Shown piece after piece: positions 390 through 50,692 of a stretch of DNA of 64,000 bases. The stretch is taken from assembly GCF_016097555.1 (NCBI RefSeq), contig NC_054707.1, forward strand, positions 43,534,873 through 43,598,872, read 5' to 3'. Under the pieces are notes generated by a model. That model searched no databases. It was not told the origin of the DNA and worked only from the letters and a program-made list of their open reading frames with translations. Source of the DNA: Gigantopelta aegis. Lineage: Eukaryota > Mollusca > Gastropoda > Neomphalida > Peltospiridae. The stretch's first letter is position 1, and each line of letters starts with the position of its first letter. The position numbers and the translations under genes were made by a program.

Positions 390-397
390 TATAAAAG
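390..397 (+). promoter_or_regulatory. TATA box of the Tc1 transposase gene
   Basis: TATAAAAG lies 58 bases before the transposase ATG at 455. A start site 25-30 bases downstream would fall near 420. That places the upstream in-frame ATG at 404 outside the transcript and favours the ATG at 455. The same box occurs at equivalent places in the other two copies. Confidence 0.6.
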
Positions 398-454
398 TGC
401 AGGGTGTTCGCTTGCCTGGCCTCTGTATCTGGCCGACAGTTGACAATCCAGGAC

Positions 455-1462
455 ATGCCACGTCTCAGTGAAACGCAGAGAAACAATGCCATCGGCCGAC
501 TAGACGCAGGCGAATCCAGAACGGCCGTTGCCAGGGCATTCCATGTGTCCCCAAGCACCATCTCCAGACTGTGGGACCGTTACCAGCAACATGGATCAAC
601 ACGTGACCTCCCTAGATCCGGTCGACCACGGGTCACTACCCCCGGGCAGGACCGCTACATCCGGGTACGCCACCTTCGGGAACGATTGACTACTGCCACC
701 TCCACAGCCGCAGCAATACCAGGTTTGCGCAGGATATCCGACCAGACCGTACGGAACCGCCTACGTGAGGTAGGAATTCGTGCCAGACGTCCAGTTCGAG
801 GTGTCATCTTAACACCACAACACCGTCGACTCCGACTGCAGTGGTGCCAGATTCATCGACAATGGCATCAACTGCGATGGAGACAGGTGTGGTTCAGTGA
901 CGAGTCCCGATTTCTGCTCCGACGTCATGATGGAAGATGTCGCGTGTATAGGCGTTGTGGTGAACGTTATGCGGCAAACTGCGTGCAGGAAGTGGACAGA
1001 TTCGGCGGGGGTAGTGTCATGGTGTGGGCAGCCATCTCACACACTGGCAGAACTGACCTGGTCCACGTGCAGGGCAACCTGAATGCACAGGGCTACATTG
1101 ACCAGATCCTCCGGCCACACATCGTTCCAGTTATGGCCAACGCCAACGCAGTGTTCCAACATGACAACGCCAGGCCTCACACAGCACGTCTCACAACGGC
1201 TTTCCTACAGAACAACAACATTAATGTCCTTCCTTGGCCATCGATATCACCGGATTTGAACCCAATTGAGCATCTATGGGACGAGTTGGACCGACGCCTC
1301 CAACAGCGACAACCACAGCCCCAGACCCTGCCCGAGCTGGCAGCAGCCTTGCAGGCCGAGTGGGCCACCATCCCCCGGGACGTCATCCATACTCTGGTTG
1401 CTTCAATGGGCAGGCGGTGCCAGGCAGTTGTCAACACACGCGGAGGCCACACCCGGTATTGA
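455..1462 (+). CDS. Tc1-like transposase (DD34E), intact
   Basis: The 335-residue protein begins MPRLSETQRNN and has the usual Tc1 length of about 340. It would cut at the element's inverted repeats and paste into TA sites in the nucleus. The N-terminal 110 residues hold two helix-turn-helix DNA-binding units (RTAVARAFHVSPSTISRLWDRY, then the SDQTVRNRLREVGI stretch) joined by a GRPR-type hook (SGRPRVTT). The catalytic core follows: WFSDESRF (first D), HDNARPH (second D) and SPDLNPIEHLWDEL (E). I count 34 residues between the second D and the E, giving DD34E. The open frame extends upstream to an ATG at 404, but the TATA box at 390 makes that start unlikely. No stop or frameshift is visible, so an active enzyme is plausible but unproven. 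Confidence 0.93.
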   Translation: MPRLSETQRNNAIGRLDAGESRTAVARAFHVSPSTISRLWDRYQQHGSTRDLPRSGRPRVTTPGQDRYIRVRHLRERLTTATSTAAAIPGLRRISDQTVRNRLREVGIRARRPVRGVILTPQHRRLRLQWCQIHRQWHQLRWRQVWFSDESRFLLRRHDGRCRVYRRCGERYAANCVQEVDRFGGGSVMVWAAISHTGRTDLVHVQGNLNAQGYIDQILRPHIVPVMANANAVFQHDNARPHTARLTTAFLQNNNINVLPWPSISPDLNPIEHLWDELDRRLQQRQPQPQTLPELAAALQAEWATIPRDVIHTLVASMGRRCQAVVNTRGGHTRY

Positions 1463-5053: not shown

Positions 5054-6439
5054 TATTGCTATGGTTTAATGGATATGATCACATGAACTACAGTTGTTGG
5101 TGTACCAGTACTTTACTAACATGTATATGCTCATCAGTTGCCACTTGGAATCCTTCATCAATGTTTATATGATAATTTTATAGTTCAAAGGCCCAAAGCA
5201 CACAATTCAATCAATTAGAATCAGGTATACTCCTTGAACTCAATGAAGCATATTGCACAGATTACTTACAGCAAATAATGCTGACCAGGAAGAGAATATT
5301 GTGCTGATCATAAAGAATTAATGGCTACCCACATAGGCGTACAGGCTCCCATTTTTTGCTCCCCATATCAATATCTAAAGGTAATTGTGAAATTACTTGG
5401 CAAGTCAATCTTGATTGTTCAAGAAACAGGTAATTGGATCAAAGTCCAAAACCTGAAGGGAACAAAATGTTTGAGAAATCTGCTGACAGTCAGACAAATA
5501 TTGTAGTTGATTGCTACAAGTATTTAACCTATAACTATGTAAAAGAAATAAATGCACAATTTAGGTATATACAAACATGTAAGTATACAAACATGTAAGA
5601 AGGATACCAATGCCTCATAATTGGTTGAGCAGAAAGCAATGTTACTGTGAATAAACAGGAATGCTCTGAACAAATAATGTGTAAAGTGTATGGCATGACA
5701 GTAGACAAGGTACGAAATGTTCTGTCTCAGAAACTGAAAGGTCCAAAATATAATGTTTGCAGACCTGTCAACCTTCCCGATTTACGCAGGAGTCTCTTGG
5801 ATCTGTATCTCCCGAGCAAGCAATAAGTATCCCGAGAAATTGAAAATTTTCAAAAACATTTTTTTTTTCACCATGGGTTTTGTGAAATACATATTAAAAG
5901 GGAAATAAATTCTTAAGGGAAAATCATGAAAATGTGTGAAAATTGCCGTTTACGAATGGGGAAATGTGGGATAAAACCATGCTAAAACAAATGCTCGCAT
6001 ATATGTCACATTTCGGTCAAATTGGACCTGACTTTGAGATGTGTGTATTTTATTCAAAAATTGTAAACATTTTTGTTAAGCAACCATTTTTTAATTACTT
6101 ATTTAACACCAGAAGGCAATATTTATGTGTATTTGTATGCCCTTTAACAATACACACCAAACGTGAAGAGGGAATATAAGCATAATACTAATTTATTAAA
6201 ATATTCCAAAAATACAAGATTTTATTATGGTTTTAAATTTTTACCCCCAAAAATCATATTTAGCATGCAGTTTCGAGAGGGGATTTTTAATATGTCATGC
6301 CAGATACATATATGAATGCAAAAAAACAACACACATCATTTCTGTTCTAATTAATTTTGTTTTGGGTTTACATAATTTTTGGGTTAAATTGACTGGACTG
6401 TAATGAAGAAAATATAATTTCAAACTCCATGAGCAGATG
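5054..6439. other. AT-rich non-coding stretch
   Basis: I see no convincing gene. Around 5760-5830 a segment beginning CAGACCTGTCAACCTTCCCG resembles the terminus of a dispersed hAT-like repeat, but I could not find its other end. The open frames at 5321-5506 and 5943-6179 are short, AT-rich and lack any motif I recognise. Confidence 0.4.
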
Positions 6440-6978
6440 ATATATATACATATATATTCTTCACTTCAATGGCAGATATTTTCAAATCATAAATAAACAC
6501 AACATTTTTGTTAATTGTTAATCCCAAATTTGTTTACACATATAAAATAATCTGTTAAAATAGTCAATTAATTCGTAATCTGTTAATTTGAACTGTTCTG
6601 GTTACACTATAAATGTCCTCTACGACAGATGACTAAAACTTACTTTATTAATTAACTTTGATAAATAAATAAAATAATATGCACTGGATACATATTCATA
6701 TTGTTGAAAAAAATAAATATAGCTATACCTTATTAAATACACATGTACACAGACTTCTTGTTTGTAACTGATGTCAGAATTAAATGTCTTAAACATGACC
6801 TGTATGACACCGACAGTTAATACAATTCAGTATTTGTAGTAAATGTTATTTTTATTAAATGACGGATAATTGTAATTTCAATTACTATATATGAATGTAC
6901 ATGTATTTACATATTTAAACAATATTAACGTGTACTAATTTATAACTAACCAAAAGGTGGCATACAAACAAACTTCCC
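6440..6978 (+). repeat. Duplicated AT-rich block (pairs with 44805-45222)
   Basis: From the ATATATATTCTTCACTTCAA motif onward the sequence runs parallel to 44805-45222 with small indels. Landmarks are TTCGTAATCTGTTAATTTG, TTCTGGTTACACTATAAATG and CAGACTTCTTGTTTGT. The last part, 6813-6978, is separately repeated at 11228-11389 (landmarks GACGGATAATTGTAATTTC and CCAAAAGGTGGCATACAAAC). It is non-coding. Confidence 0.8.
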
Positions 6979-8098: not shown

Positions 8099-8413
8099 AG
8101 CAAAAAAACAACAACTGATAAAAACGCAATATAGTGTACATCACTTAACTGTGCTTCACAATTACAGTCGCTTAATACATCTTCCTAAATTACATAAAAG
8201 GAGTGTGAAAGGGGTGGATGGTGGGATAAAGCAAAGTTTTTGTTTATTTACCTGTGATTCGCTCGAAAGGCAGAATTCTTCCTCAGAGTGCAGAAGTCTT
8301 CTGATTGGTTAATCTATTTATTATTAATTGGAAGTTTGAGCATGATCATCTGGTGTAACATTGGTAGTCACTAACTGTAATGTCCACATATGAATACAGG
8401 ACAGGAGTTATAA

Positions 8414-11118
8414 TAGTCCGGCCATCAGGGGCTTAACCTTGTTTTGAATAACATAGTTTTTTTTATTGGTGATTTTATATGTCTAGGCCATCCACATTTA
8501 GAATCCGAGTGATGCCACACTGGCATCCTTGAGCAATTTGAGATATTTGCATAAATCCAAGATGGCCACCAAATTTCAATATTATTCCATATACATATTT
8601 GCACTTACATGGCATATTTACAAATTTTCAAACTTTGTAAAGCGGTTATTGAGCACAACTAATTGTTTGGGAACTTTTATATTGTAAATGACATATTGAC
8701 GTATTTGCATAAATCCAAGATGGCTGCCAAATTTCAATATCATTCCATATATTTGCACTTATATGGCATATTTACGAACTTTCAAACTTTGTAACACAGT
8801 CATTGGGCACAAGTAATCGTTCAGGTACTTTTATGATGTAAATGACATATTGACTCATTTGCATAAATCCAAGATGGCCACCAAATATTTATTTCGCAAT
8901 ATATTTGTAAATGTAATACAGTATGGCTCATGTAAGAAAACGTAATACGGTGGCGACAACGTATTCATCAAAGCGTGTGCGTCGAGATACCCAACACAAC
9001 CATAGCTATAAGATCCCTAAATGATAGTAAGAATTACAGGAACAACAGCAGACATAAATGAAAAAACAACGGAAGCTCCACAGAACACAAAATTAATACC
9101 AACAGGATTTCTATGAAATATACGCGAAGTACATTAGATTACCACCATGACCACAGCGGAATGTTTATAACCCAGCAATCCCTCATTGATATGCTGGTGG
9201 TATATCGTCTTGTATCTTTAGTTTTGTAACATTTCCATTCTGTGGGCCTTATTTCTATATATTGCAATTTTAGTTTAGATTTTCTTCATGAGGACCTTAC
9301 AGGGCTACATATAGTCGTAGATTAGTCGAGTGTTGTTCAAGGAGCTTTTCAACCTTCATTACATGGGAAATAGGTTGTTCGATGTGAACGACCGTCTTGT
9401 GTTTCCTTCATTCAATTTCTATGTCAACAGCTGACTCCACTGAACTAGTGAGAACATTACAGCAGTTGGTTGCACGACATGCACAAAATATAGTGCATGC
9501 AAGCTTCGATTTGCATCCACGCAAAGATGCACTTGTAACGCCCATTCATCTCAGGGCCCGCGCTTGTCACATTTAGCTAGTATTGCATCTCTAAGTGATT
9601 GGTCACTTTGTCCTTTCTCTACTTGCTGAACTAGGTAAGCCGGTCTCCATCCCTTTGGATTTTTGGGGTCTTTTTTGAAATTGCATTGATTGCCACAGAA
9701 CACACAATGCTGCTTAAAGACGAATGGACGTTCCACTGATCGTCTTAGATATTTCGGTTTGGATAGAGACTCTGTTGCCATTGTGGCTTTCCTTTTATGC
9801 TTCCTGTGGTGCGATGACGTATAAGATGACACACAACTACGGTGACACTGTACTGTACAGGCGTCATCATTATCCAGCAGTTGCTCAAGACCCATGTGAA
9901 CACCATCATCGTGCTCTTTGCTGCAACGAATTATCGTTTTCACCCTATCGGGTCCGGCTGTGGATAACGACTCTTTCTTGTTTCTACATTGAAATGTATT
10001 CTCAAACAGCAACCTTCCATTATGCTCATTATAGTTGTGTCTGCCTTGTTAGACCTAATATATCTAATAGTCTAAAATGCAAACTAGTGAGTAATATCAG
10101 AATTACAAACATGTTGCACTCTATTGTAAAATGACTTCCGGTGTGTTCTTTATTATGATTGGTTAATTACATTCTTTTTCCGGGATCAAATAGACAATAA
10201 CACTCGGAAAGCTAATGATGTCATTAGAAAATGACGTCGTTAGAAATTGAAAGAGGCGAAGTTGACGATTCAGTTAGATTGTAGCCAAATATTTTTTTCC
10301 ACGAAATACCAAATATACAGTTGATTCAGTTTACAATGGACATAACCATATGGAATTTTTAAAAATGACATTTGCGGGATCAAATAGACAATAACACCCA
10401 CAAATCTAAAAACGCAATATGGTTATCTCCTAAGTGGCGGGAAGCAAATGCAACGTACAACGACGTCTGTAACTGGACAATGCGCGTCTAACAACGCTAT
10501 GCTTTTTTCTCAGGACTTTTTGTCGATACGTAACTGTAACGTTGCATAAACAATTATTGCCAATTTCAGAAAATCTACACCAGCTGTATATATCGAGAAA
10601 TACAAACAACCATCAAATTTCTGGAGGTGTTCAATGATTGTATAATGGTAAAGGACGGAGTCCAAAAGCAGAATACTGTATGTTTATATGCATTTCCGCA
10701 CCAATTCTGCAATACAAAACTCTCTCATGCAAAAAAGGCAATATATAGTACATATTCACGACCTGAGAACAATTATGTGGCCAGATTTTGAGATTCGGTG
10801 GCCATCTTGGATTTCCTGAAAATACGAAATGATCTATTTAAAATATAAATTTATCTAAATTTCATATTGTGTAAAAATACACATAACTAGCAGTTTTAAA
10901 TACATAAATGTATCATATAGTGGCGAATATATGAAATAATATTGATAGTTGGTGGCCATCTTGGATTTATGCAAATATCTCAAATTGCTCAAGGATGCCA
11001 GCGTGGCATCACTCAGATTCTAAATGTGGATGGTCTGGATATGTAAAATCGCCAATAAAAAAAACTGTGTTATTCAAAACAAGGTTCAGCCCAAAATCTC
11101 ATTCTGACGGCCGGACTA
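8414..11118 (-). mobile_element. 2.7 kb TIR transposon, superfamily unassigned
   Basis: Inverted repeats of more than 170 bp bound this element: left from 8414, right ending at 11118, both starting TAGTCCGGCC. Landmarks of both arms are CCTTGTTTTGAATAACA and GCATCCTTGAGCAATTTGAG. The flanks show TAA at 8411-8413 and 11119-11121, a 3 bp target duplication. Just inside the left arm a unit of about 160 bp containing AAATCCAAGATGGC is tandemly repeated (8538-8886). The interior holds one minus-strand ORF, 9551-10012, with paired cysteines and histidines. No DDE catalytic core is visible, so it is either non-autonomous or divergent. A 3 bp target and a Cys-rich N-terminal protein could suit the Academ group, but that is a guess. 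Confidence 0.7.
9551..10012 (-). CDS. Cys/His-rich ORF in the TIR transposon
   Basis: The ORF has 153 residues. It holds two potential zinc-binding modules: VQCHRSCVSSYTS at about residue 55, preceded by a Cys near residue 29, and CVFCGNQCNF near residue 103. A basic run, HHRKHKRKAT, lies between them. The C-terminal part (SLRDAILAKCDKRG) ends abruptly, as if an exon boundary or truncation follows. I do not recognise a named domain. The same arrangement, including a His-x-x-Cys motif and a CxxC module followed by a KRGDE-type helix, appears in the decayed gene at 48043-49380. The two therefore look like members of one multicopy family, perhaps the DNA-binding N-terminus of a large transposase. 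Function is not established. Confidence 0.5.
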   Translation of the reverse strand: MLFENTFQCRNKKESLSTAGPDRVKTIIRCSKEHDDGVHMGLEQLLDNDDACTVQCHRSCVSSYTSSHHRKHKRKATMATESLSKPKYLRRSVERPFVFKQHCVFCGNQCNFKKDPKNPKGWRPAYLVQQVEKGQSDQSLRDAILAKCDKRGP

Positions 11119-11227
11119 TAATAGTTCAACATAAATTCATTTATTTGCAATAAATTCTATTTATGTTGATACTATTCTCTGGAGCACAATGAAGCTACAT
11201 GTTTTGTAGTTTTGGTTATTAAATAAT

Positions 11228-17484: not shown

Positions 17485-17933
17485 GGTCTCACTACACAGA
17501 TCACTTCCGGGTGAGAGTTTCACTGATCATGGTCCACTATAGTTCCTAATTCTGACACATGTTATGGTGCACATATTCACTTCTAGGAAATGGTGAAGAA
17601 TTAAAACAATATGTATGTTTAATATGGTAAGCCTTCTGGCTGTATTTTGCCCATGCTATTTTGTAATATTGTGCATCGACCTTTTGGGACATGGCTGTCT
17701 CTTGCGCTATGCAAGAGACAGCCAGAGTGAATCGGTTAATAAACCACCTGTTCGGACCGGTACTACAGCCAGATGCATGCAGTCATATAGCAAAAAAACT
17801 GAGACGTAAATGCTTATATAATGTATGTTCGTGATGGTGTATGTTGTTAGTGCCAATCTATTGGCAATCTTCGTTTGAAGTTGGGCAATTTAACATGGGT
17901 TTCAATGGCAGACAACATTTGTGTAGTGAGACC
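17485..17933 (+). mobile_element. PIF/Harbinger-like MITE, second copy
   Basis: The 449 bp element has the same GGTCTCACTACACAG ends as 4504-4964. The left flank is TAA; the right flank is TAC here but TAA in the duplicated copy at 47724, so the original target was probably TAA. Confidence 0.82.
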
Positions 17934-18278
17934 TACATTGTAACAACACACATCTGTGTACTTTTCGGTTAAATCCAAGTTACAGGCGTCGTCAATGAGA
18001 CCATCTCACTAACATGTCGGTGTACACATCAAGTAACCTTTTTAGTCCCAAGTGTTTTTGGTGAGATCAACTTGAAGCATATTTTTACAGGAATCATTCA
18101 CATAACGTGTATATCTAAATCTAACTATAAACATTAGGATACATGTACCATTGCAACGGTATTTTCCCGAGATATGCCAACAAAGTTGCAGCGAACTGGA
18201 ATAATAAAAACAAAGAAAAAGTCAACCTCACGATTAGTGTGCTAAAATCCTTTCATTAATCACCAGTGTGAATACATG

Positions 18279-18569
18279 CAGGGCTCGAAATTGGAAGTGA
18301 AATATGTCCTGGTAAGAAAAATTATGTCCTGCTTGAAATAAAACAGCTCAGAGTGCGAAGACAATTTGGAATAGTGTAAAAAATTAGGACCTCTGAGATG
18401 TATTTTTGAGCATTATGGAATTAAATGTTAATAGAATCACAACCTAAAAAGCAAATGAGATAATCATACATGACCTTAAACTGTGATTGGTTTTAGCAGG
18501 TGAATTTCTATTTCACTAAATAATGGACTAGCTGCTCTCACTTTTTACAGGCCACTATTTCGAGCCCAG
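18279..18569. mobile_element. hAT-like MITE
   Basis: Ends CAGGGCTCGAAATT and ATTTCGAGCCCAG are inverted repeats; the interior is AT-rich and non-coding. The GGGCTCGAAAT terminus also appears at 57487, where only one end is seen. Confidence 0.65.
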
Positions 18570-18658
18570 TGATTATGATTCTGTTTTCTTCTAAATTTTC
18601 AGCAGCATGGTACAGTGTAAGTAAAACAGATTAGAACATAAAATATCTATTGCTGTTT

Positions 18659-18858
18659 NNNNNNNNNNNNNNNNNNNNNNNNNNNNNNNNNNNNNNNNNN
18701 NNNNNNNNNNNNNNNNNNNNNNNNNNNNNNNNNNNNNNNNNNNNNNNNNNNNNNNNNNNNNNNNNNNNNNNNNNNNNNNNNNNNNNNNNNNNNNNNNNNN
18801 NNNNNNNNNNNNNNNNNNNNNNNNNNNNNNNNNNNNNNNNNNNNNNNNNNNNNNNNNN
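18659..18858. other. Assembly gap (200 N)
   Basis: The run of exactly 200 unknown bases implies a placeholder of unspecified true size. Block B starts at its right edge. Predicted proteins spanning it are artefacts. Confidence 0.99.
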
Positions 18859-19625
18859 TTTGAAGGTGGGGGTTTTTTCATATCATCAAAGCCTTCTGAC
18901 TAAAAGTAGTGGGGGTGACCCTCTCAAAAGTGTGGGCTAATTGTGCCAGGTGGCGAAATCCAAGATGGCCAACAAAATGATCAAAATGCATGTTTTTCAG
19001 CATCTGTTTGTCGTATTAAGATAATTTTGATGTTTAGATATATGTTTTGGGGGTCAAATAGTTCAGTTTGACACATTAGAACAGTGTTCATTATAACATA
19101 TAAAAAAACATTCAGACAAAAATCCAAAATAGTTGTCAAAATTAATCATTTGCTTACTTTTTCACTGAACTCATCTTGAAAAGTAACACAGACAGTTGCT
19201 GTATTATTTTTATTTGCTTTCAAACTGATTTGGATACAAGAAAACGAACTTTTATTGATGATAATTTATGTCCAGGGTGGTATGGCCTCCTCAGGCTCCG
19301 AATCAGTTGTTGAGTTGGACAGGTTTCATGTTCTGCATCCTCTACCTTGGTTGCCATTAATACTGTGTTTTTGATATGAGACTACTTAATATCTTGGGAA
19401 GCATAGGGTTTGTGTCATTGTACTTTCATCAGGTGCCATCCATGATCAAGTGAAAAAGGTGGCCATGGGACATATGGTTTACAATAATTGAGAAGCAGGT
19501 ACACTTAATGTTGTGAGAGTCCTGATCTGGTGTTGACTTCGTTTTCATCATTCTCTTGGAAATCCTGCCTTAACTAGGTTTTAACTAGGCAGATAAATCT
19601 AAACAAAACAATGTGCCTAAGAAAA
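18859..19625 (+). repeat. Segmental-duplication block B (left copy)
   Basis: The segment parallels 50693-51430 at high identity. Landmarks are GTGGCGAAATCCAAGATGGC, CAGGGTGGTATGGCCTCC and GGAAGCATAGGGTTTGTGTC. No coding sequence is apparent in either copy. Confidence 0.9.
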
Positions 19626-19727
19626 TGTAATTTCACAATCCGCTATAATGTCGATGTTATATTATTTAATAATAGCTAGCAGGATAAAATATTAAATACA
19701 TAAGACATTAACTACTGAAAGTAACCA

Positions 19728-19993
19728 ACCTGATTACAATTAGCTCTACTGGTCTACCAGTAGTTCTAACAGAATTGCGTGGACTCCCATGGCCAGGTGA
19801 CATTTCATCAATAAATAACAATTTAAATATCGACCAATTACACTTCATACAAATTCTACAAATATTGGGCAAAACTATTTATGCAATAGGCGAACTTGTT
19901 GGTCTATTTCAATCATTAAAAAAACGGCGGAAAGTGCAGTAATAAACTCTGGATTGTATACTAGTATAAACAGATTTTATGGCTATACCATCA

Positions 19994-20047
<54 letters not shown>

Positions 20048-20330
20048 ATTTTATATAAAATTTTATATTGAAATTAGTTTCCAGCATACTTCGTAATTCA
20101 CTCGAATCATTTCGTATACCCTCGGCATAATCCCGAATGTTTTCAAATTCTTTTCAAATCACTGGCATGATTTTGCAAGTAAGGTGATTCGTCCAATGAA
20201 AGGTCAAATGGACATGAGCTCCAACAGGGTGCTGTTGGATCCACAGGTAATAGTAATTAACCAGTGGAGCTAATTTTAATTAGATTGAAAGTAACAAGCC
20301 GGTTTCATACCCAATCTATGCATAGAGTTT
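19728..20330 (+). repeat. Segmental-duplication block C (left copy)
   Basis: The segment parallels 55409-55834 plus 56897-57022. Landmarks are TAAACTCTGGATTGTATAC, TCGTATACCCTCGGCATAAT and ATGAGCTCCAACAGGGTGCT. It supplies the empty site of the retroposon at 55835-56896. A (TC)n microsatellite at 19997-20042 is present only in this copy. Confidence 0.88.
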
Positions 20331-22109
20331 GAAAGCAACACTGACCCCCACCCAAATTTTTTTTTAAAAATTAAAAATAATATTCAGCAAAAATGATGGT
20401 TGCTATTAAAAACATTAATTAAATCTCTTAAATTATACGTGACCCCCCATTTTTCTTGCAGGTAGATTAGATGTGAGGTGCCACACTTTCTATTGCTGTA
20501 CTTCCTGGGTGTGTTGAAACGCTGCTTATATCAGTTGTATTAGTAAACATTAACATTATCGGCAATAGGAATTGATTTGGTCTATTAGAATCTATAAAGT
20601 ATGACATCGCGGCCATTTTTACAGCTGATAGGGTCACATGATATTTTTTTCTTAACGTGGCGTCTGACGTCAATGGCTTCTTTTGGAAGTGTTTTGAGGC
20701 GTTAAAGACGTGGCTCATTGTAGAGAAAGGTCGATTTTGTCACTAATAACGAAATATGATCTTTAAATGCAGTTTGAAAAACACTGAACTTCAAATGGAT
20801 TCTGAATATATTTCTATACTTCGGCACATCGAGTTCACTAGAGGTGTAACGAATACACAGGGTGGCGAATACGATACGTATCACGAATATAAGGTGACGA
20901 ATACAACTATGTATTCATGAATACAATGCATATAGGCAAAAACATGCTGATAAGTCAGTAATTCACAAATAATAATTAAAATATGGTATTATGATGCATT
21001 TGCTTATTCAGTTGCATGTACACAGTTTAAATAATATATATATATATAGCATAGCACGCCCTATTACCGCATGGCTTATCGGAAAATGGGATTCTGAATA
21101 AAAACATTGGTCTAATCTAACGATTTTTGTTTGCCGTTTTGTTATTCATGCTTTCATGCATATAGTGAAATAAAAAAAATCCCACCGAAGTCATTAATTT
21201 CCAGTAAGAAACATGTACCAGTTTTGATGCGGTGACGTACATACGCAAAGGGAAGGAACTCTCAGTTACCGCAGGTGTTGTGATTGTTTAGTATGGAGGC
21301 CCGTTATGGACAAAATTTTAATAAATGTTACTGTATTATTGAGCGAGAACATCAAACAAGTCCTGGTGTGAATATCACCAGAATTTGTCCTTTTAACGTC
21401 CTATTATCATGGTTAAAGGTACTTAAAACCAATAACTTAAACATTCTCGTTACAAATAATCTGAACAAATCCTGGAATGCAAGATATTTTAAACTGGAAC
21501 AAATCATAAACTTCAATATACTGAACAGTAACACTGTAGGAACTTGCTGAGTATATTATGCATGCAATGAAGGCACAGAAACGAGCTGTCCGCCCTTACA
21601 ACCTTGGTATCACTGGAGAATATAAAACGTTTCTATTGATCACTTTTATCACATTGTACCCATTTGACACTCACAAGATTTACACACTCTGTGTGCCGGA
21701 AGAGAAAACTTTACAAATTACACAGCATTTCGATTCCTCCAAATCAGACCCTTCACTTTCCTCATGAGAAATTGAATTATTTTCAATGAGGTGGATGATC
21801 CAGGCTGGGGTGATGAAGGTAAGTTTTTGTGTTCTTTCCAATTATTTTTTCAGTGCTTTGTTTACTTTTATTTTATTTTATTATTTATTTTTAAAAATAT
21901 TATTATCAGTACCCCTTATAAATTTATAGTTGTGCTTATAATTAAAAAAAAAAATATGATGTTTAAAGTGACAAATATTTTGACGATCTCGCTCATTCTT
22001 TTCGTGATGCAGTCAATCAACAATGTGTGACGTTACAGTTTCATGTTAATATGTGGCCTTTATGCGCCTCCATACAAGCCGTAACACGTCATTACAAAAG
22101 TTGTCCATT
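20331..22109. other. Non-coding stretch, no gene recognised
   Basis: Several open frames of 60-90 codons on both strands (for example 20467-20718 minus and 21284-21550 plus) have no recognisable motif and no conserved partner in the window. I see no repeat ends. Confidence 0.4.
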
Positions 22110-24985: not shown

Positions 24986-26605
24986 TGTTTGATGGGAATG
25001 GCTTTAGAGCCAAACACTCAACCATAGACCAAATAGTACGATTACAAAACTCAATCAACGATGCCTTTAGGAAATCCCATAAAGTTTGCGCTGTATTCAT
25101 AGACAGAAAAAGCTTTCGACATGGTATGGCGCCAAGGCGTGTTAACTAAACTAAATGATAAAGGTATTAAAGGCAACATGTTCAATTTTATCAATAACTT
25201 TATTCATAATAGATCTATTTCAGTTAGAGTAAATGGTCAATTTTCAGATAAAACAGAAATCACTAACGTTATTCCGCAGGGCTCAATTCTATCCCCCACC
25301 CTGTTCAACATCTTTATTAACGATATTACTAAAGCACTAAACTCTACAGAAAAACCAGGGCAAACTTGCCCACTAAATACTGCTCTCTTCGCCGACGACT
25401 GCGCCTTAAGGCGAGCAGGCAGACATACTTGTTATCTTTTCAAAAAACGTCAACTAGATATAGATAGACTAAATAAACGGGCCCTTGACTGGGGGATTAA
25501 ACTTTCTTCAACTAAAACAGTTTATATGCTATTTGATAAAACCAGAAAACCAGATAAATTCACGCTTAAATCAGATGACAACCTAATACCACGCGTCTCA
25601 CAATTTAGATTTTTAGGAGTACTATTTGACTGTCAATTAACCTTTAAACCTCATATAAACAGCATAATTCAAAATACTAAAAACCTCTAAATCTTCTTAG
25701 AGTTATTGCAGGCACCAGCTGGGGAGCACAGACTGAGGCAATGCTTATGGTCTACAAAGCATCCTCTCCAAGATAGACTATGGAGCCCAGGCCTACAGCT
25801 GTGCTTCCCCGACTCTGCTTCATAAACTAGATATTATCCAAAATAAAGCACTTAGAATTATAGCTAAAGTACCTAATACAACCAGTGGTAAAAGTTTAGA
25901 AGTAGAATTTAACGTAATGCCTTTAGAATACTGCCGAAAACTCCAACTTCTTAAATATCACTTAACAATTCACTCGCTAAATATTAACCATCCAGTACAG
26001 GACCATCTGTCTAAGGAAAACCGACCTGGTCAAACCCCTAAACCAAATCTCAACTTTATGATTCTTTCGCTACCCAGGCCAACAGAATTGAAATTGAAGT
26101 AGGTATAGATAATACTCCAGTGGCAATGTACCATGTCAACCAACCTATCGATTGTCATACGCATTACTTAATTAAACAAACAACTGATAAAACACCTTTT
26201 CCACCTTTTAAAAAAATCTTATTTGAAGTAGCCACTAATTAAAATTACCCAGATCACATCCATAGCTACACGGATGGATCTAAAAATCCCGACAACGGCA
26301 GGGATTGTTTCGCAGTAGTAGAAGAAAAACTTTCCAGACACTCTAAATTAGTCAAATATTTGCGGCTGCCAGATAATCTATCAGTTTATACAGCAGAACT
26401 CACAGCCATTTTACATGCACTTGTCTGGATAAAAAAAAAAATGTAATTTTCTCTAATAGCTTAAGTTCTATTCAGTCACTTCAAACCAATAAATCAACTA
26501 GACCAGATACTGCAGCTGCCATCCACATTGGACTTAAGGCTATCCAACAACTCAACCTTAAGGTAACGTTTGGATGGCTACCAGCACACGTGAGAATCAT
26601 TGGCA
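24986..26605 (+). mobile_element. Decayed LINE with reverse transcriptase and RNase H
   Basis: Reverse-transcriptase blocks run in order: NGFRAKHST, a DMVW segment, VIPQGSILSPTLFNIFINDI, the catalytic LFADDCAL (FADD) and FRFLGVLFD. An RNase H domain follows, with YTDGSKNPDNG and AELTAILHAL, and a late block, FGWLPAH. RNase H after RT places it with the I/R1/Jockey-type LINEs. The longest open stretch is 25121-25690, 189 residues. A one-base insertion near 25105 separates the first RT blocks from the rest. Many stops follow between 25690 and 26250. The 5' end is missing: the element starts inside the RT, directly after a hAT-like fragment with a poly-G run. It is dead. Confidence 0.85.
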
Positions 26606-35619: not shown

Positions 35620-37522
<1,903 letters not shown>

Positions 37523-41541: not shown

Positions 41542-43039
41542 TACTCTTCAAAAAAAGAAACGCAAAAGGGTACAAATGGGTTATAACTCCGATTTTATGT
41601 TTCCTACCGGTTCATGCTTTGTGAATATAAGGTCATTGCATGTCCCAAACACATTCCCACGGTTACATTCGATAAAACGCAGCTACTGTACAATAAAGTT
41701 CCAAAATGTGAATATTCGCAAAAACGCAGCCACGTGCAAACCATGTCACCACTGCACGTGCGTTGTCTGCACGTGCAACATGAACACCGACAGTATAAAA
41801 GTGCAGGGTGTTCGCTTGCCTGGCCTCTGTATCTGGCCGACAGTTGACAATCCAGGACATGCCACGTCTCAGTGAACCGCAGAGAAACAATGCCATCGGC
41901 CGACTAGACGCAGGCGAATCCAGAACGGCCGTTGCCAGGGCATTCCATGTGTCCCCAAGCACCATCTCCAGACTGTGGGACCGTTACCAGCAACATGGAT
42001 CAACACGTGACCTCCCTAGATCCGGTCGACCACGGGTCACTACCCCGGGCAGGACCGCTACATCCGGGTACGCCACCTTCGGGAACGATTGACTACTGCC
42101 ACCTCCACAGCCGCAGCAATACCAGGTTTGCGCAGGATATCCGACCAGACCGTACGGAACCGCCTACGTGAGGTAGGAATTCGTGCCAGACGTCCAGTTC
42201 GAGGTGTCATCTTAACACCACAACACCGTCGACTCCGACTGCAGTGGTGCCAGATTCATCGACAATGGCCTCAACTGCGATGGAGACAGGTGTGGTTCAG
42301 TGACGAGTCCCGATTTCTGCTCCGACGTCATGATGCAAGATGTCGCGTGTATAGGCGTCGTGGTGAACGTTATGCGGCAAACTGCGTGCAGGAAGTGGAC
42401 AGATTCGGCGGGGGTAGTGTCATGGTGTGGGCAGCCATCTCACACAGTGGCAGAACTGACCTGGTCCACGTGCAGGGCAACCTGAATGCACAGGGCTACA
42501 TTGACCAGATCCTCCGGCCACACATCGTTCCAGTTTATGGCCAACGCCAACGCAGTGTTCCAACATGACAACGCCAGGCCTCACACAGCACGTCTCACAA
42601 CGGCTTTCCTACAGAACAACAACATTAATGTCCTTCCTTGGCCATCGATATCACCGGATTTGAACCCAATTGAGCATCTATGGGACGAGTTGGACCGACG
42701 CCTCCGACAGCGACAACCACAGCCCCAGACCCTGCCCGAGCTGGCAGCAGCCTTGCAGGCCGAGTGGGCCACCATCCCCCGGGACGTCATCCGTACTCTG
42801 GTTGCTTCAATGGGCAGGCGGTGCCAGGCAGTTATCAACACACGCGGAGGCCACACCCGGTATTGACTCCAGATGACCTTGACCTTGGTGGTGTGTCCTA
42901 TCACTTACTCACAATGGACTAGAGTGAATTGTGAACAATCCTGCAACATTTGGTAATTATCGGACTCACCATTCAATAATTAAATCAATTCTCCAAATGT
43001 TACGACAATGTGGTTTTGCGTTTCTTCTTTTGAAGAGTA
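41542..43039 (+). mobile_element. Tc1-like DNA transposon, copy 3
   Basis: The 1498 bp element has the same termini as copies 1 and 2, and TA duplications at 41540-41541 and 43040-43041. It lies in intron 2 of the LRR-like gene, in the sense direction. Confidence 0.95.
41859..42866 (+). pseudogene. Tc1-like transposase with two frameshifts
   Basis: The sequence is nearly identical to the intact gene at 455-1462. One C is missing from the run at 42043-42046, and one T is extra at 42534-42536 (TTTATGG against TTATGG). The first breaks the frame after the DNA-binding part and the second before HDNARPH. Catalytic motifs are otherwise present. Few other differences are visible, so it died recently. 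Confidence 0.9.
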
Positions 43040-48042: not shown

Positions 48043-49380
48043 CAGTGTCCAAGACCATCTAAGATGCCAATGAGTTTTGATGAGTTTGTCAGGTGGCGCA
48101 TATTCATTCCCAAAGCCCAATGCTTAGGGGTTTGCTTTTTTCCATTACTTGCAAGATAGACAATATCCTGAGCAATTGAAAGTATTTTCTTCTCTTGTTC
48201 TGGCTTAAGATTAACATACTTATCAGTAATGTCTTCAGATAACCCTGTCATACATGCCAAAACATTATACAGTCGACGGGGACTGCAGACCAAGCACTGT
48301 CCAAACTTAGATCTTCTGCAACTAACGGCCAAATGTTGGGGCAGTCAGCATCTACAATAATACTTCTTAAATTTTGTGAAGACAAAAATCTAAGTCTTGT
48401 TTCTTCTGATTTTCGAAACTCGGTTGTACATGAGTCAGTGACATCACTTCTTTCTGAAATTGTATCAATGTCACTATCATCTATGTGTAAACTTTGGAGA
48501 TGGCGATACTAATCATTTTCACTGAAAATAAGTTCACATTCATTCTTTCAGCTTCATTTAACGAATTGATGTTTGGATGCATTTTGATAATGTGTTGCTT
48601 CAAAGTGTAATTTCTATATTCCATTATATCAATATTTTCAAAAATTTTAAGAGTTTTAATACATAATTCAGTTACAGTATTCATTTTTAGTACATCATGC
48701 CCTTTAATAATCCTATCTTCCAAAACTTGTTTGCTGAATTCATTAAATGATTTTTGGTATGGTGTAGGCCTATCAGTGATTTCGGGTTCATCGGACATGT
48801 TTTTTCTATCCAAAATTCTGACATATTTTTTGTGGCACGACGGATGATATCAAAGCTCAATAGCTATTAGATCCTTATCATGAAGGTGCAGCAACAAAGC
48901 TTCATCGCCACGTTTTTCAGCTGCTTCCACTAGTTTTGACTGTCCTGTTTCACACAAACTTAATTTTTTAATTTTTCGCTTACGTGAATGTTTTTCTACA
49001 GTAAACTCATCTTTTTTGCAAATGACACACACTTCTGGTAGAACATTGGCACATTTCCCTTTTGGTTTTGAATGATGCGTTAATTCTGAACGAAGGAGGC
49101 GCTTGCGGAGGCGGGAGAGGAGGGGGGGGGGGGTCTAAATTTTTTAATTCATGTAAACACTTACATTTTCATCATACGTGTCAAATAAATCTGTACTGGT
49201 ACTACATTCTGCCCCCGATTTAGTAGTGTTATTTGTTTTGCTATTTATTCTTCTAATGTTTGTAAAGTCCATGTAACACTGCCTGTGATAACCCAAATGT
49301 TTACACGTTTCAGGGATAGGTTCATTGTTTTCTTTAGTTATTCCATGCTCAATACAGAAGATGGCTGCCAACTTACACTC
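48043..49380 (-). pseudogene. Decayed Cys/His-rich gene, same family as the 9.6 kb ORF
   Basis: The minus strand carries pieces in order. First comes FCIEHG with CKHLGYHRQCYMDF, a His-x-x-Cys module. Next is CVICKKDEF, with a basic helix (KHSRKRKIKKL) and EKRGDEALLLHL. Then YHPSCHKKY, a long helical region (YRNYTLKQHIIKMHPNI), and finally KHWALGMNMRHLT, which runs into the gap. The pieces lie in several frames with stops between, so this copy is dead. The WALGMNMRHLTNS-type segment is one I associate with large multicopy proteins of molluscs and cnidarians that lack an assigned function. It may be a transposon gene or a host family. Confidence 0.55.
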
Positions 49381-50692
49381 TTCTGTGTTTAGAGTTTTCC
49401 ATAAATTAACTGATGTTACACATTTTTTCCAACTTTTTTGTCGAAAATGGTGTAATTGGGCCTAAAATGTTTTTAATGTGCACACAGAACTCACTCAATG
49501 AAGCTGACATTTTTGGACACACAAATTTAGCTATTAAGCGTTTTGATTGGCTGCTGTAGAGTTGCTGTGAAAAAGCTAATTTGTGATTAGTGGAATGGGA
49601 GAGAACTCTGAATAGAGTGATGTCATACCACACTTCTGAAAATAGTACATTTCAATGTGTTCTAGCTAAAAATATGTGCAACATCTGAAGTGACAACATT
49701 GTATTTTTAGTAAAAGAATACATTTCTGAGCCTACATGCAAAAAAAATCAGCTTAGCCCACTGACAATTGTAACGGAATGACAAGATACAGGTTTGGACC
49801 TATGGCCTGTGGTGGTGGTGTTTTGTTTTTTTGGGAGGGGTTTGTTGGGGTTTTAATTATAGTTTTAAAATATATTATCATTTTTATTATTATTATCATT
49901 AAGAAAAAAACAAAAAGCAGAAAAGATAAAAGATTACTACATGTATGTAACTGCCTGTATTCAAATGCCATTAAATGGTTCAATTGTTTTAAAACACAGT
50001 TTGAGTTCTTAATACAATTCCTGTAGTTGTGCGATAGAGACACAGATGATTGAGTAGTGAAATGCCGAGACATTTCTTCAAATGGTTTTAAAGCTCACTC
50101 ATAAAGACAATGATAATGTGTATTTTATACACCAATGGTCTTCTTCATCAATTACTGTAAATGGATACTAAAACAAAAAGTCTACATCAAAGCGAACATT
50201 TAGCCTGCACATAAGGTCATACGATATGACGTAGATTGAAATATTTAAGTGTTCTAAAAATGCATGTAATATTTATTGTTCAACGAGTTTGTAAGATATA
50301 AAACTATTTTAATTATTGACTGGTGTTCATTGTTGTGTTTTCTAGTTGTTTGTTTGGGTTTGGGTTTTTTTCTTTTTCTTTTTCTTTCAAATAACCTAAA
50401 GCAGCAGTACAATATTAGATAGTTGCTGTTAAAATGATCAAGTCTAACACTTCATAAGTTGTGGAGAGAAAGATAGACGAGAGATAGAAGGAAAGAAGGA
50501 TGAGAGGGCAAAAAAACCTACCTGCCAGACGATACTAAGCGGAAGGAATAAATAACTGTTTAACGACACCCATAATAAGCAGATGTAATACCATTAAAAC
50601 CAGCCAATACAGACTAAAAGCGAATTTCACTATATCAGTAATATAGTAGAGAATAAATAATACAGTTCCGTGACCAATTTACTGGGACAAAT
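49381..50692. other. Non-coding stretch right of the decayed gene
   Basis: Short frames at 49406-49633 and 49753-50073 show no motifs. The 49406-49633 frame may be the gene's 5' edge. Nothing else is recognised up to block B. Confidence 0.35.

Follow-up and report, generated by a model that had tools for sequence, protein, structure and literature searches.

How a transposon that has lost its enzymatic core can be assigned to a class is the question raised by a 64,000-nucleotide stretch of the genome of the gastropod Gigantopelta aegis (contig NC_054707.1, positions 43,534,873 to 43,598,872; hereafter the window), which contains a short element with long terminal inverted repeats (TIRs) framing one open reading frame (ORF). 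The original prediction left this element unclassified; it is indeed a TIR transposon, but it can be classified, having longer kin in the same genome, of up to 5.4 kb, that share similar ends, 3-bp target site duplications and the same N-terminal protein and that continue into a middle part resembling a transposase and a C-terminus resembling a nuclease. The element is a deletion derivative and an ordinary relic, not a new class: it is a non-autonomous, internally deleted and decayed transposon, quite probably belonging to the AcademX type of the Academ superfamily, with which it is compared by description only. Such a derivative can pass for a new transposon class when only the ends and two damaged gene fragments persist.

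The gene remnant and its relatives

The ORF of the window element lies on the minus strand, is measured from stop to stop, and has a length that a frame reached only once when the bases of the element were shuffled 300 times. Homologues in its own genome confirm it. Searches of the assembly (1.149 Gb in 5216 contigs; C numbers denote contigs of this genome) returned 34 match rows at an expectation value (E) of ≤0.001, the ORF itself and 33 others, a few of them being two rows from one place, and the next four matches after the ORF itself share 39–46% identity with it over most of its length. Eight relative loci were fetched (C5, C14, C1, C1440, C4, C3, C10 and C12), in which the presence of the middle block, the C-terminal block and the tail was judged by tblastn at E ≤ 1e-3. 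Two N-terminal Cys/His modules occur in all eight, a conserved middle block (LPMLDMYPADPD, TNDQQLYK, LGGMHMLMSF) in five (C5, C14, C1, C4 and C10), a nuclease-like C-terminal block (EEAD, DTDVFVLL, GCDTVAQ..GIGKATV) in seven and a Cys-rich tail also in seven, the exception for the tail being C10, where the locus enters a 200-base gap of N and tandem repeats. The middle block is missing from C3, C12 and C1440, so that internal deletion recurs in the family. The C1440 element, which is 3720 bp long and retains the N-terminal modules, the tail and some of the nuclease block, is a less reduced analogue of the window copy. One frame at C5 extends over 1087 codons, and within the fetched stretches none of the eight relatives has the complete protein in a single uninterrupted genomic frame.

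The expectation of one ORF with two Cys/His modules holds for the ORF and for the modules as a feature of the family; in the window copy itself both modules are incomplete and the protein is a fragment. The CHRSCVSSYTS and CVFC motifs are intact, and Leu stands in place of the first Cys of module 1. A Pfam scan of the ORF gave no match, and an AlphaFold2 prediction of the ORF alone was uninformative (mean predicted local distance difference test score, pLDDT, of 40).

A second gene fragment was detected when the Cys-rich tail of C3 was used alone as a tblastn query, matching the element at the position given in Table 1; with the relatives' proteins as queries (frames of at least 90 codons, E ≤ 0.01) this C-terminal remnant was missed. 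The remnant scores 71 against the C1440 tail and 69 against that of C3, scores reached by none of 1000 shuffles in either case, and 53 against C14 and 50 against C12, each reached by one shuffle in 1000, and for all four tails its frame is the top scorer among the six frames of the element. Neither the middle block nor the nuclease-like block was found in the window element in searches with the relatives' proteins. The window copy is thus an N-terminal remnant joined to a tail remnant by internal deletion and subject to later decay, and the overlap of the two matches places the deletion junction within about 9494–9536. The absence of a recognisable catalytic core from this copy, already noted in the original prediction, is explained by the same event, because the internal deletion removed the core.

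Termini and target site duplications

The terminal sequence at 8414 and at 11118 is TAGTCCGGCC, and the long inverted repeats that had been predicted are confirmed: their outer arms of 20 nt are 90% complementary and their inner arms of 165 nt (8429–8593 with 10928–11092) are 93% complementary. The insertion is not fresh, because the TIRs differ by about 7% over these 165 nt. The subterminal repeats were also correctly foreseen, with three direct copies on the left, 158 and 154 bp apart, that recur in inverted orientation on the right.

Both ends are in hand for six elements, namely the window element, its protein kin in C1, C4, C12 and C1440, and an element in L018, one of 20 sampled 10-kb stretches, picked by its paired AATCCAAGATGGC motifs. 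All five protein-kin elements start with TAGTC and L018 with TAGTA, and each of the six is bordered by a 3-bp duplication (TAA in the window, CCA in C1, GTT in C4, CTA in C12, CAT in C1440 and CAA in L018). Any two sites taken at random from the window have the same triplet with a chance of 0.02, giving about 6e-11 for six of six, a value to be read with the ends having been partly picked by eye. The remaining four of ten loci were unscored for duplication: C5 shows only a right end, C10 only a left end, and C14 and C3 no such end, the right end of C14 falling at the edge of the fetched stretch. Since the flanks of the window element also share the seven bases TATAATA, the TAA duplication is ambiguous from this copy alone; a 7-bp duplication was considered and dropped, as related elements have 3 bp before TAGT. 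The related elements appear to settle the window duplication as the 3-bp TAA originally read from it.

The elements measure 5375 bp at C1, 5358 bp at C4 and 5329 bp at C12 (with its middle deletion). A box within the window TIR (AATCCGAGTGATGCCAC...CTTGAGCAATTTG) is common to C1, C4 and C12, with part of it in C1440, whereas the exact CCAAGATGG was found in none of the fetched stretches of C1, C3 and C4, and this motif is therefore not general in the family. It had been anticipated that the ends might belong to a family already described, and this holds in part, since they do belong to a wider family. An inverted repeat of 340 bp, with 99.7% identity between its arms, lies outside the C12 element on both flanks (L041, reversed, 260–599 and 6296–6635).

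The TIR element in L018 (1147–4848) has TAGTAGGG ends and similar subterminal motifs. One of its frames holds EAD, DTD and GCD motifs, and the alignment of its C-terminal frame with C1 is at 24%; that it is kin to the window family is a guess at the level of motifs.

Copies at the DNA level were sought with the left TIR as a genome query, which gave 52 match rows. Near copies lie at C9:26206849-26210786 (ends 97% and 88%, about 3.9 kb), C789:25387-29143 (ends 89% and 85%, about 3.8 kb), C4:9447014 (96%, left end) and C621:88706 (90%). The 34 ORF rows include none of these four, but in that search only the best candidates were scored and weak matches are possible; the absence of the ORF from other copies, which the original prediction had considered for all of them, is seen in part, in these nearest DNA copies. 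Four weaker TIR rows are at most 5 kb away from ORF rows (C1:40796681, C4:15642775, C12:44294557 and C4:111366190). About 30 of the TIR rows match only a 49-nt subterminal segment, which is common to a wider set of elements. The genome has three further exact matches of TAGTCCGGCCATCAG, which were ruled out as copies of the element because they have no other sequence in common with it at E ≤ 1e-5.

Table 1. Features of the window element (positions are those of the window; TIR, terminal inverted repeat)
Feature	Position	Strand	Remarks
Whole element	8414..11118		2705 bp, non-autonomous TIR transposon
Left TAA of the target site duplication	8411..8413		
Right TAA of the target site duplication	11119..11121		
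Left TIR	8414..8593	+	starts with TAGTCCGGCC
Right TIR	10928..11118	-	near-terminal excess of 11 nt relative to the left TIR
Three subterminal repeats	8538..8905	+	starts at 8538, 8696 and 8850; AATCCAAGATGGC in each (8554, 8712, 8866)
Inverted subterminal repeats	10785..10983	-	minus-strand AATCCAAGATGGC at 10801 and 10955
Open frame, what is left of the N-terminal Cys/His modules of the large protein	9554..10048	-	165 codons
N-terminal homology beyond the TGA stop (9551-9553)	9494..9553	-	stops short of the closing YHxDC of module 2
Remnant of the Cys-rich (CXC-like) tail at the C-terminus of the same protein	9423..9536	-	frame differs from that of the ORF
Internal repeat-like stretch	10124..10433		also several times in sampled stretch L020

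Classification of the family

The class of the element has to be read from the parts that its longer relatives retain. The middle block carries candidate Asp and His motifs in the five relatives that have it, with no Pfam match, and from these we infer a DDE-type domain. For the C-terminal block it is the order of motifs that points to a nuclease. AcademX nucleases are XPG-like, and an ordered pattern of FEN/XPG motifs fits C1 but none of the 55 window peptides of at least 100 residues and none of the sequences obtained by shuffling the C1 part 20000 times. Both halves of the pattern occur in separate frames of C14 and C12, the first half in C4 and the second in C5. We further presume that Academ proteins resemble the proteins of these relatives. 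In their 3-bp duplications, their lengths of 5329–5375 bp and their nuclease-like C-terminus, the relatives fit AcademX by description, with no Academ protein aligned; the AcademX lineage is described in passages of PMC10045372, citing Kojima 2020, as having 3–4 bp duplications and an encoded nuclease.

A number of results weigh against this assignment. Pfam searches with six large relative frames gave a single weak match, to the CXC domain (E 0.52), PHROGs and NCBIfam searches with three relative frames gave nothing below E 0.08, and PDB sequence searches gave nothing credible, the best match being a designed TPR protein (E 0.015). A profile of the C-terminal block (8 rows, effective number 1.4) compared with 49 archaeal FEN1 proteins (49 of 53 loci) was null, at a probability of 0.2% against 0.5% for a control with the transposase middle. 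The C3 protein fails the full FEN/XPG pattern, which was loosened after both families had been viewed and fits 22 of the 49 FEN1 proteins, and L018 gave no tblastn match to the blocks tested. To these may be added the account in PMC10294476 that Academ elements are poorly represented outside bivalves, and the existence of KolobokP, a DDD/E lineage of molluscs with a His-Me nuclease and 3–5 bp duplications (PMC9587614, in part). A literature search found no paper combining Academ, XPG and transposase, and searches of phages, plasmids and viral contigs led nowhere.

These null profile searches, together with an Academ likeness that is one of description, are what would speak for another DDE superfamily, perhaps an undescribed one, of which the element would be a non-autonomous relic and which would combine 3-bp duplications, a nuclease-like C-terminus and cut-and-paste movement. 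We consider this unlikely, given that duplication length, nuclease-like part and element length all agree with AcademX and Academ as far as the published accounts seen extend. It is unlikely, too, that the longer relatives (C1, C4, C5, C12 and C14) form an undescribed lineage that is not AcademX, which may be marked by two Cys/His modules, a DDE-like core, a FEN/XPG-like nuclease and a CXC-like tail; in some relatives the arrays of AATCCAAGATGGC near the ends, a motif that we take to be YY1-like, may be putative binding sites. An origin in a nuclease-bearing Kolobok lineage, of which KolobokP is an example, is very unlikely. KolobokP has in common with the window family its mollusc host, short duplications and what would be a DDD/E transposase and an accessory nuclease, yet its elements carry long direct repeats at their termini (PMC9587614); no direct repeat spans both ends in C1, C4, C12 or C1440 (E ≤ 1e-10) or in the window element, and the His-Me nuclease is of another type than the FEN/XPG-like motifs of the relatives. 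The TTAA duplication of typical Kolobok and piggyBac elements, as given in the same source, is seen in none of the six elements.

Two other explanations start from the window copy itself. The short ORF might encode a functional small protein under selection, either an end-binding factor or a repressor, as its frame has stayed open over 165 codons with two motifs preserved. Against this, homology continues beyond the stop, module 2 has lost its closing motif and module 1 its first Cys, the tail remnant lies in another frame and the nearest DNA copies are missing from the ORF match list, leaving selection on this ORF highly improbable. The target of PIF/Harbinger elements is TWA, a rule that the TAA of the window copy would satisfy; with kin that duplicate the unrelated triplets CCA, GTT, CTA and CAT, as well as CAA in L018, and with no Harbinger-type Pfam match for the ORF or for six relative frames, an element of that type is scarcely credible. 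EnSpm/CACTA elements have termini of the CACTA type and were ruled out, the termini being TAGT in all six elements.

Proposed mode of movement

In the AcademX-type reading, the large protein of the longer relatives would bind the ends or the subterminal repeats through its N-terminal Cys/His modules, the DDE-type middle would cut and join, and the FEN/XPG-like part, judging by its motifs, may help in processing. The 3-bp duplications are present at the insertion sites, and cut-and-paste insertion into staggered cuts is the reaction that would leave them. The window copy, its gene reduced to damaged N-terminal modules and a damaged Cys-rich tail, kept its ends and subterminal repeats, so that it would once have been movable in trans and was presumably mobilised before it decayed.

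Other features of the window

The stretch at 10124–10433 within the element is repeated in L020 (C6:35 Mb), where its copies have various orientations, and is probably a separate small repeat. Lone AATCCAAGATGGC motifs occur outside the element at 18957 and 50789 on the plus strand, and no long inverted repeat pair was found around the former within 17500–21500.

A decayed relative of the element's protein had been proposed at 48.0–49.4 kb, a kinship that could not be shown. A profile of the eight relatives, run against 1597 window peptides of at least 25 residues, matched only the ORF of the element, even at E ≤ 1, and in 12 shuffle tests of the 48-kb pieces against four relatives the score was reached by 2 of 100 shuffles in one test and by 10 to 93 in the other 11; the stretch was dropped as a demonstrable relative after these tests. 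It consists of decayed minus-strand frames (48045–49400) with a CxxC...HxxC-like pattern, adjoining a run of N, and one frame has a match (E 0.00083) to the Spin-doc zinc finger model that falls short of the model's cut-off. These frames possibly belong to another transposon family.

Near-identical transposase frames of Tc1/mariner type lie at 395–1459 (+), 36179–37225 (-) and 42020–42863 (+), the first two with DDE_3 and helix-turn-helix (HTH) domains in Pfam and the third split between frames. A fragment of a LINE-type reverse transcriptase lies at 25103–25687 (+; RVT_1, E 8.8e-19).

Comparison with known Academ elements

Should the assignment to Academ be true, the long and deleted copies of this genome would suit the study of an accessory nuclease and of subterminal repeat arrays. 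AcademH, by the literature a member of the same superfamily, has 9–10 bp duplications and a helicase according to passages of PMC10045372, in contrast to the 3-bp duplications found here and to the absence of any Pfam helicase match in the six relative frames. The window copy differs from AcademX in being half as long and without catalytic parts, and the likeness is one of description and not of protein alignment. What the family has in common with AcademX is its 3-bp duplications, the nuclease-like part of the longer relatives, and a length near 5.4 kb in those relatives, compared with a mean of 5565 bp for the Academ elements that have expanded in bivalves, as reported in PMC10294476.
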